Shown in pieces: positions 31,183 through 47,060 of a stretch of 64,000 nucleotides of DNA (position 1 is its first letter; each line of letters begins with the position of its first letter). Both the position numbers and the translations under genes were made by a program. The DNA is taken from NCBI RefSeq assembly GCF_035934735.1, contig NZ_CP142396.1, forward strand, positions 2,604,001 through 2,668,000, in the 5' to 3' direction. The DNA is from Sedimentibacter sp. MB31-C6 (GTDB taxonomy: Bacteria; Bacillota; Clostridia; Tissierellales; Sedimentibacteraceae). Under the pieces are notes generated by a model. That model saw only the letters and a list, made by a program, of their open reading frames with translations, searched no databases and had not been told where the DNA came from.

Positions 31183-31188
31183 TCAAGC

Positions 31189-31291
31189 GACAATTAAATA
31201 GATACCGCAGACCGTTGGTGCTCAAAGAGTTTAAATATCCAACCGAGGTGAGATATAAATTAATTTCTCTTCGTCTGCGGAGAGATTTTTT
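31189..31291 (+). promoter_or_regulatory. Ribosomal protein L10 leader (attenuator)
   Basis: CCGCAGAC (31205-31212) can pair perfectly with GTCTGCGG (31273-31280), enclosing the GTTGG...CCAAC hairpin typical of the L10 leader. The same 3' bases are needed for the terminator stem TCTCTTCG (31266-31273) / CGGAGAGA (31278-31285), which is followed by six T. The two structures are mutually exclusive, so L10 bound to the first fold could shift the balance between termination and read-through. Confidence 0.8.
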
Positions 31292-31296
31292 GTATG

Positions 31297-31590
31297 CCCT
31301 AACCCAATTATTTCGAGCGATAGCGAAGAAAGAATTGTTGGTAGGTCAACCGCAACGAATTCCCAATTTTTGCGAACGATAGTGAGCAAAAAAATTGGTG
31401 AATGAGACTGCGATATCCCTAACCCTATTTTTACGAGCGTTAGCGAAGAAAAAATAGCGGTAGGTCAACCGCAACGAATTCCCAATTTTTGCGAACGATA
31501 GTGAGCAAAAAAATTGGTGAATGAGACTGCGATATCCCTAACCCAATTATTTCGAGCGATAGCGAAGAAAGAATTGTTGGTAGGTCAAAA
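31297..31590 (+). repeat. A-B-A-B-A array of hairpin-forming repeats in the rplJ leader
   Basis: Two full periods (31297-31416, 120 bases; 31417-31535, 119 bases) and a third truncated one (from 31536). Each begins CCCTAACCC. Element A contains CGAGCGATAGCGAAG (CGAGCGTTAGCGAAG in the middle copy) and ends TAGGTCAA; element B contains GCGAACGATAGTGAGC and ends GACTGCGATAT. A1 and A3 are identical for about 53 bases, and B1 and B2 are identical throughout. All five fold as hairpins with CCTA(A)CC/GGTAGG (A) or CCAATTTTT/AAAAATTGG (B) stems. No ORF is present. A further CCCTAACC stub lies at 31597. The array falls between the L10 terminator and the rplJ ribosome-binding site. Confidence 0.9.
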
Positions 31591-31643
31591 TTAGATCCCT
31601 AACCGGATAAATGTATGCCGCTTATAAGGAGGTGTAAACGGAT

Positions 31644-32147
31644 ATGAATCAATCAGTATTAGAACAAAAAAAGCAAGTTGTTAATGATATTACAGATAAG
31701 TTAAATAAGGCTAAATCTATTGTATTAGTAGAATACAAGGGGTTATCAGTTGAAAAGGCTACTGAATTAAGAGATAAGTGCAGAGAAGCAGGCGTTGAAT
31801 ATAAAGTATACAAAAATACTATGATGCGTTTTGCGTTTAAGGAATTAGGTTATGAAGATTTCAATGTAAACTTAGAAGGACCTAATGCAATAGCTTTATC
31901 TTATGAAGATGAAGTATCTGCAGCTAAAGTAACAAATGATTTTGCTAAAACAAGTGATGCTATAAAAATAAAAGCTGGTATTGCTGATGGTAAGTTAATG
32001 GATGCTGATGAAGTTAAAACTTTAGCTAATGTTCCATCAAGAGAAATTCTTATTGCTCAGTTGGCAGGTGTATTACAAGGAAATATTAGAAATCTTGCAT
32101 ATATACTTGATCAAGTTGGCAAAAAAAATGAAGAAGTAGCAAACTAA
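31644..32147 (+). CDS. rplJ: 50S ribosomal protein L10
   Basis: 167 residues: N-terminal rRNA-binding domain (KAKSIVLVEYKGLSVEKATELRDKCREAGVEYKVYKNTMMRFA) and a C-terminal helix for L12 dimers (REILIAQLAGVLQGNIRNLAYILDQVGKKNEE). It anchors the L12 stalk. The ATG follows AAGGAGGTG. Its leader is about 455 bases long and carries the attenuator and the repeat array. Confidence 0.97.
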   Translation: MNQSVLEQKKQVVNDITDKLNKAKSIVLVEYKGLSVEKATELRDKCREAGVEYKVYKNTMMRFAFKELGYEDFNVNLEGPNAIALSYEDEVSAAKVTNDFAKTSDAIKIKAGIADGKLMDADEVKTLANVPSREILIAQLAGVLQGNIRNLAYILDQVGKKNEEVAN

Positions 32148-46896: not shown

Positions 46897-47060
46897 GCTT
46901 GCCACATGCGATGACGCAAAAGGTTGCTGATTTTTCAGGGAATTTTTGCAGAGTATGTCCTGTTAGAAAACAGGGCGACCGGTATTGCTTTTAAAAAAAA
47001 TAAGAAACACCCGGCTGGGTGTATCGAGCAATCCCGAGTTGTATGGTTGACATACGAAAA
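46897..47060 (+). promoter_or_regulatory. Structured 5' leader of the S10 operon
   Basis: Several hairpins are visible: CCTGTT/AACAGG with an AGAA loop (near 46960-46976), ACACCC/GGGTGT with a GGCT loop (near 47008-47023), a longer-range ATTGCT/AGCAAT pairing flanked by CGG/CCG that encloses the previous one, and GTATG/CATAC just before the ribosome-binding site. There is no terminator, so control by a ribosomal protein would be translational or by an unseen mechanism. This fills most of the 46710-47073 gap. Confidence 0.5.

Follow-up and report, generated by a model that had tools for sequence, protein, structure and literature searches.

The array of repeated hairpins in the leader of the L10-L12 operon raises the question of whether it belongs to the regulation of this operon or has come to lie there for another reason. 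In the window (the whole stretch of 64,000 nucleotides of Sedimentibacter DNA analysed here), genes that we take from their ORF sequences to be L11, L1, L10, L12 and RNA polymerase beta follow one another on the forward strand. The direct-repeat search located an A-B-A-B-A array at 31297-31588 (+), between the L10-leader attenuator and the rplJ ribosome-binding site, just where the first-pass annotation had placed it. The attenuator, which is the host site and lies outside the repeat, is the L10 leader at 31187..31301 (+; Rfam RF00557, 62.5 bits), and its T-run is immediately 5' of the array. Downstream, as context only, rplJ (L10) occupies 31644..32147 (+) as an ORF of 167 aa. The closest RplJ relatives in named genomes belong to Sedimentibacter or to unclassified Tissierellia or Clostridiales bins. 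Farther downstream, at window positions 46903-46978, an S10-Clostridia ribosomal protein leader (RF03136, 40 bits) was also observed.

The make-up of the array agreed with the earlier description. Hairpins A1 (31297..31349, +) and A3 (31536..31588, +) are 100% identical over 53 nt, and hairpins B1 (31350..31414, +) and B2 (31470..31533, +) have the same sequence in the alignment. Hairpin A2 (31417..31469, +), which belongs with A1 to direct-repeat family D2, matches A1 at 72% without gaps. The loops that had been quoted for A and B were both found in the sequence, with CGAGCGTTAGCGAAG as the variant loop of A2. A 116-nt stretch of the array is repeated at 96% with a spacing of 119. A3 has no B of its own, and a stub of a further A (ATCCCTAACC; direct-repeat family D3) follows at 31595..31604 (+). 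In terms of R1, a covariance model that spans a single A-B unit with both its hairpins (118 positions), A1 and B1 make up the unit at 31295-31414 (126.6 bits), A2 and B2 make up the unit at 31415-31533 (111.2 bits), and A3 gives a partial match at 31537-31584 (37.8 bits).

The hairpin folding claimed for the units was also borne out. The 325-nt array stretch folds better than 100 of 100 shuffles (z = -5.62), and the z values of A1 and B1 are -2.95 and -5.77, respectively. As had been noted, there is no ORF of 60 aa or more over the array to explain it. The view that the array stands outside the described families was likewise upheld, in that no family of Rfam 15 reaches its gathering score over the array; the listing up to E = 10 contained one chance-level miRNA match there (E = 3.1, at A2). 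The double-hairpin repeat family is apparently undescribed, since no description of this repeat was found in the open-access (PMC) literature, a coverage outside which most subscription journals lie. An assembly artefact is an unlikely source of the array, because the genome consists of two contigs and many further genomes also contain the unit. Since the array lies 3' of the terminator, it is carried only by transcripts that pass the attenuator.

The first-pass annotation treated the array as a feature of the L10-L12 operon, and advised a covariance model and a search of the same and related genomes. Both have now been carried out, and the operon turned out to be one site of an order-wide repeat. 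Model R1 recovered the units of the array and found 32 copies in the own genome, where blastn with the array as the query gave 25 matches. According to a comparison of coordinates with the rRNA and tRNA maps, 23 of these 32 copies lie inside rRNA/tRNA operons, in the 16S leader and in the 16S-tRNA-Ala, tRNA-Ala-23S, 23S-5S, 5S-tRNA-Asn and tRNA-tRNA spacers. Of the other nine, three belong to the rplJ leader, two follow the rplS terminator, one lies behind a Moco riboswitch and one behind a T-box (copy at 1673225; T-box at 1672964-1673204), and two are weak. An extra fragment behind a second T-box of this genome (L023) was recognised by blastn and by eye. In other genomes, the unit often lies behind T-boxes. 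The supposed specificity for L10-L12 was thus not sustained, and an L10-operon-specific array was rejected, copies being found genome-wide.

The units are not confined to the rplJ leader in related genomes, either. In the family, 24 of 27 genomes have R1 matches, the number per genome ranging from 0 to 62 and three genomes being without a match. In the order, matches occur in 88 of 199 genomes and 29 of 78 genera, some of them single and weak, which establishes a repeat family of order-wide spread. In the class (292 genomes, E <= 1e-6), three genomes gave matches under stricter filters by which weak matches were lost: besides the own genome, these were a second member of its order and a genome from outside it (one match). 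A pattern scan of IMG/VR yielded 10 stretches on 9 viral contigs, each with an R1 match; a second IMG/VR pattern yielded no stretches, and a blastn match was absent from the phage and plasmid record collections. In nine of the ten viral stretches, the unit has a truncated copy of a gene start before it and the complete gene after it; judged by eye, the protein is presumably a phage tail protein in seven cases and a ClpP-like prohead protease in two. At the phage or prophage loci L199-L203, L211, L313 and L315-L322, a diverged duplicate of a gene start is followed by the unit and then by the complete gene.

The base of hairpin A is TGACCTA/TAGGTCA, and its top varies. Hairpin B follows after 2 nt; its base is CGCA/TGCG, and its stem contains tandem G.A mismatches, often with a second set next to the loop. 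The unit has no T-run of its own at the 3' end. The tandem G.A motif was inspected by eye as a possible kink-turn, but the three-base bulge that a kink-turn has next to its G.A pairs is absent, and this reading was dropped. Half models revealed copies that consist of A alone; at two places in G110 (1940889 and 2801422), such a copy directly follows a further T-box, and A may therefore be the core. In one related operon (L035:2679-2854), the A hairpin of the rplJ leader has an extra insertion in its loop, a nested repeat.

The fold is conserved. In an alignment of 18 units, 91.4% of the cells are paired and 17 of 43 pairs show changes on both sides. None of 500 shuffles was as good on pairing together with both-side changes, and slid structures pair at 32-44%; the number of further pair types was not above that of the shuffles (229/500). 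As read from this alignment, the stem changes are compensatory. In the well-aligned stem columns (at least 90% Watson-Crick, copies of at least 60 bits), G-T was counted 55 times and A-C 38 times in 4976 cells, and at rising score cut-offs the G-T/A-C counts in columns of at least 90% Watson-Crick were 32/22, 16/12 and 8/9. All pair columns, misaligned cells included, gave 211 G-T and 110 A-C in 7950 cells, and this unrestricted 211:110 looks like a mild G-T excess, as expected for RNA. There was no difference by context (64:34 near rRNA/tRNA, 123:64 elsewhere).

If a stem is maintained at the RNA level, G-U pairs are better tolerated in it than A-C. The acceptor stems of 119 tRNAs from the studied loci contained 53 G-U and 4 A-C in 833 pairs, a control that makes the comparison suggestive only, because it is one strongly constrained structure. 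Since G-T is about as rare as A-C in the unit and many changes lead from one Watson-Crick pair to another, these counts suggest that the fold may matter in DNA, or that one arm may be copied onto the other, rather than that an RNA fold is kept at each site. Neutral decay after insertion would be expected to give the same stem counts, and arm-to-arm copying during replication could produce paired changes without selection.

The placement of the unit was analysed with 196 unique copies from 208 rows out of 105 + 138 matches. This set, which is not random, was drawn from the own genome, from the best-scoring copies elsewhere and from 80 requested places (63 new); entries that repeated one place because loci overlapped, and weak matches from the tail of the list, mostly below 50 bits, were left out. 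Another copy precedes 34 of the 196, and 162 are first copies. Sixty first copies have a tRNA or rRNA gene no more than 400 nt away, and 56 of these copies are on the RNA strand. Among the other 102, of which 30 come from one genome (G010), the script assigned 58 to a position directly behind an intrinsic terminator, 14 to a position directly behind a stop codon and 30 to neither; some of these 30 were near misses by eye (L225, L280) and others were not. Random positions in the same loci (n = 3060) gave 3.2% for terminators and 2.3% for stop codons. When the starts were shifted 15-60 nt upstream, 1-8 (terminator) and 2-7 (stop) of the 102 remained, and the antisense view from the 3' end gave 5/102 and 2/102, respectively. 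A stricter terminator rule retained 48 of the 196 copies, versus 45 of 3920 random positions and none in antisense. In 41 of the 47 strict-rule cases among the 102, the unit starts 6-10 nt behind the stem. At the stop-codon sites (10 of 14 examined), the upstream genes include those for L23, L10, EF-Tu, ArgRS and MetRS, and also those for 2,4-diaminopentanoate dehydrogenase and for HD-domain, ComFB, DsbD-like and FtsW/RodA proteins. The unit is thus placed in sense behind terminators, attenuators and stop codons and between tRNA and rRNA genes.

Attenuators are frequent among these terminators. At 31 of 60 loci scanned with Rfam, which were picked mostly for a visible upstream terminator although a third batch included other sites, a regulatory leader stands directly upstream on the strand of the unit. 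These leaders are 24 T-boxes, two L10 leaders, two FMN, one SAM, one Moco and one glycine riboswitch. When the T-box matches listed for five genomes were compared with the unit lists, at least 28 of 130 T-boxes carried a unit, namely at least 2/23 in G000 (one a fragment), 10/30 in G010, 1/27 in G025, 9/26 in G083 and 6/24 in G110. The last genome has 137 strong intergenic terminators in 400 kb, or about 1000 genome-wide by extrapolation. Among the 23 of its 40 matches that were fetched, eight first copies lie behind a terminator found by the script, with four T-boxes and one L10 leader. Set against about 1000 terminators, this share of T-boxes and L10 leaders therefore indicates an attenuator preference of some tens-fold, as a rough figure. 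So strong a bias towards attenuators, compared with ordinary terminators, calls for something beyond neutral insertion and counts against the mobile-element reading preferred below. At L173:1186-1841 in G010, two consecutive T-boxes were seen with a unit between them.

Several observations bear on whether the unit moves. Both 16S-23S spacers of L026 in the own genome contain a unit, and the same point is empty in L027 and L028, the flanks being otherwise alike. In a test with 175 copies, from which those below 60 bits or of odd length had been dropped, 100 of 136 copies had their nearest relative within their own genome, compared with a mean of 12.3 and at most 24 for shuffled labels; this figure overstates mobility, because it includes tandem and rRNA-operon copies, which are able to homogenise by recombination. 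The relatives of the L10 operon form a mosaic, in that L029, L035 and L036 have units in the rplJ leader, L031, L034 and L036 have one directly after rplJ, and L030 (S. hydroxybenzoicus), L032 and L037 have the leader but no R1 match. Sedimentibacter saalensis is among the carriers of a unit directly after rplJ. A site after the L23 gene is common to five genomes (four by script, L280 by eye; Pfam on one), and some sites may therefore be old, kept copies.

The empty sister spacers, the 0-62 copies per genome and the clustering within genomes point to a small mobile element. Of the options offered by the first-pass annotation, the one of a small non-coding mobile element that is tolerated in the leader is thus favoured. 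No target duplication is evident at the one clean pair of empty and filled sites, which also did not fix the exact ends of the unit. Longer flank similarity exceeded the 99% control at 12 of 147 sites, and at three of these it is plainly that of tRNA or 5S sequences. A MITE is recognised by terminal inverted repeats that span the element, and the unit has none; the start TGACCTA and the end ACTGCG each pair inside their own hairpin. A search with the half models for an autonomous parent, with the A and B halves apart around a gene, found none in G000, G025 and G110. At L161, L168, L171 and L174 (G026), tandem units were observed antisense to the rRNA operon, together with an adjoining short 5S-like fragment and flanking repeats of ~60 nt.

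We consider, with a probability of about 0.58, that in this array a small non-coding and probably non-autonomous mobile element, REP/BOX-like, is repeated in tandem, an element the insertion of which is linked to transcription and which is tolerated in the rplJ leader. The unit would move as a DNA hairpin, in a single strand or a cruciform, and would enter the coding strand where transcription pauses or ends, where the polymerase is paused and the strand may be exposed. Such entry would account for the fixed orientation of the unit. Arrays of the A-B-A-B-A type might grow afterwards by unequal recombination. The copy in the rplJ leader is most likely tolerated in the untranslated stretch from the attenuator to the ribosome-binding site, and any effect on the expression of L10 and L12 would be secondary. 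It counts against this reading that no mobilising gene was found, none of the Y1 loci examined being flanked by the unit. A further-reaching form of this idea, which we put forward only tentatively, is that the mobile hairpin follows the map of transcription. It would insert in sense exactly at pauses and RNA ends, such as the T-runs of attenuators and the ends of genes, tRNAs and rRNAs, through the exposed coding strand or as cDNA joined to an RNA 3' end, and might in this way have colonised attenuators and the translation apparatus across the order and in some phages.

Hairpin repeats are common in bacteria and are usually described from dispensable spacers. A sense repeat behind T-boxes and riboswitches and in rRNA spacers would probe the exposure of transcription ends to recombination, and the same repeat would add RNA structure to some of the most-expressed transcripts. 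With 0 to 62 copies in one family, mobility and cost can be tested by strain comparison.

Other explanations of the same facts were considered. It is rather improbable that the unit is a REP/IS200-like element that a host Y1 (HUH) transposase moves as a single strand into the lagging-strand template, its sense orientation arising because genes mostly run with the fork. The two-hairpin palindromic unit and the DNA-like stem statistics would fit such a route, as would the Y1 genes found in 20 of the 27 genomes, whose 256-281 aa are sizes typical of REP-associated Y1 enzymes. However, seven genomes with 4 to 46 copies have no Y1 match, two of them being 94% and 97% complete, and no R1 match was found at seven Y1 loci (8 of 47 Y1 matches). 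The Y1 genes of the own genome are flanked by a different repeat, no isolated A and B halves are paired around a gene in three genomes, and a Y1 remnant in G026 lies ~0.8 kb from a unit that is present on one side only, with another ORF between. The unit at this remnant is a single one, directly behind a terminator-like T-run. At L289:1899-2960 of the own genome, Y1 genes were observed with a repeat family of their own around AACCGTCCCC, unrelated to the A-B unit. An RNA-mediated route, in which a reverse transcriptase copies the RNA of the unit and then changes over to the free 3' end of some abundant RNA (a terminated leader, tRNA, rRNA or decay fragment), the cDNA then recombining there, would leave a sense unit exactly behind the RNA 3' end. 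The distance of 6-10 nt behind the stem, seen in 41 of 47 terminator-borne units, is about where terminated RNAs end; attenuated leaders, tRNAs and rRNAs are favoured, and upstream sequence is duplicated at some sites, such as the phage genes. The route would also explain the flank similarity at 12 of 147 sites. We nevertheless regard this route as quite unlikely, given that the 14 of 102 stop-codon sites are not known RNA 3' ends and that the stem statistics are DNA-like.

A function of the RNA itself would explain part of the placement. The two hairpins could act as a signal for RNA processing or stabilisation, such as the target of a double-strand endonuclease, by which an RNA unit lying upstream (attenuator leader, tRNA, rRNA or upstream cistron) is set apart from the next, and selection would retain this signal in highly expressed transcripts. 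The sense orientation of 56 of the 60 first copies near rRNA or tRNA, the position of units at the boundaries of RNAs and genes and the numerous translation genes concerned (rRNA, tRNA, L10, L19, L23, EF-Tu, ArgRS and MetRS) speak for such a module. Sister spacers and related species lack the unit at the same place, however, three of 27 family genomes have no match, the stems hardly favour G-T over A-C, and the host genes include unrelated ones (DAP dehydrogenase, ComFB, DsbD-like). We therefore think this explanation improbable. That the array extends the L10 leader regulator and serves the L10-L12 operon only is hardly credible. Its position in the rplJ leader, shared by units in some relatives, would suit such a role, but the unit occurs at many unrelated loci, the three relatives L030, L032 and L037 have the leader without it, and the RF00557 match stops where the array starts, so that the array itself is unmatched by the L10_leader model.

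The preferred reading, a mobile hairpin element tolerated in the leader, can be compared with known systems. REP and BIME sequences are palindromic extragenic elements with pairs of hairpins, present in many copies in transcribed spacers and gene 3' ends. The A-B unit is likewise palindromic, extragenic and present in many copies per genome, but it is longer (118 nt), has another sequence and is commonest in rRNA/tRNA operons here. REP hairpins have a conserved GTAG-type tetranucleotide at the foot; the unit has a GGTAGG, which lies inside the 3' arm of A and not at the hairpin foot. In contrast to REP/BIME with RAYT, no RAYT (Y1) gene flanked by units was found at the loci examined (9 of 47 Y1 matches; G026 one-sided). 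Palindrome-associated elements of the IS200/IS605 type have two terminal hairpins, no evident target duplication and a defined orientation. The unit resembles them in its two hairpins, in the lack of an evident target duplication and in its orientation, but no insertion sequence with matching ends was found in G000, G025 and G110. Group IIC introns insert directly behind intrinsic terminators, a site that the unit shares; unlike them, it is ~118 nt long without an ORF, and the Rfam scans gave no intron match.

The pneumococcal BOX, RUP and SPRITE elements are, in the part of the source available, small non-coding modular hairpin repeats of one species group that are partly found in transcripts, and one BOX element is joined there to two T boxes (PMC3049150). 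Compared by description with these elements of Streptococcus pneumoniae, the A-B unit is also small, non-coding and a modular hairpin. According to the same part of that source, BOX, RUP and SPRITE are over-represented between convergent genes and show no clear functional classes, whereas the A-B unit stands in sense, behind attenuators and in rRNA/tRNA operons (PMC3049150). The mobile attenuators of Naville and Gautheret, among which the accessible portion of the paper includes BIMEs acting as attenuators, are similar in that a mobile sequence meets attenuation in 5' leaders (PMC2965389). In that portion, the mobile part is the terminator itself, whereas the A-B unit lies behind a host attenuator and has no 3' T-run (PMC2965389).

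As far as the available part of one survey goes, repeat clusters inside rRNA precursors were set aside (PMC2267715), and elements of this kind could therefore have been passed over. The rRNA operons of the own genome showed two further features. The 16S genes at L026:2787-4584 and L026:11095-12891 contain an AT-rich insertion of ~290 nt between 16S positions 69 and 86; the same insertion is shorter in L285 and in L165 (G025), and is absent from L027 and L028. A Clostridiales-2 RNA (RF02937, 60.7 bits) lies at L026:19518-19612, directly behind an rRNA/tRNA operon.
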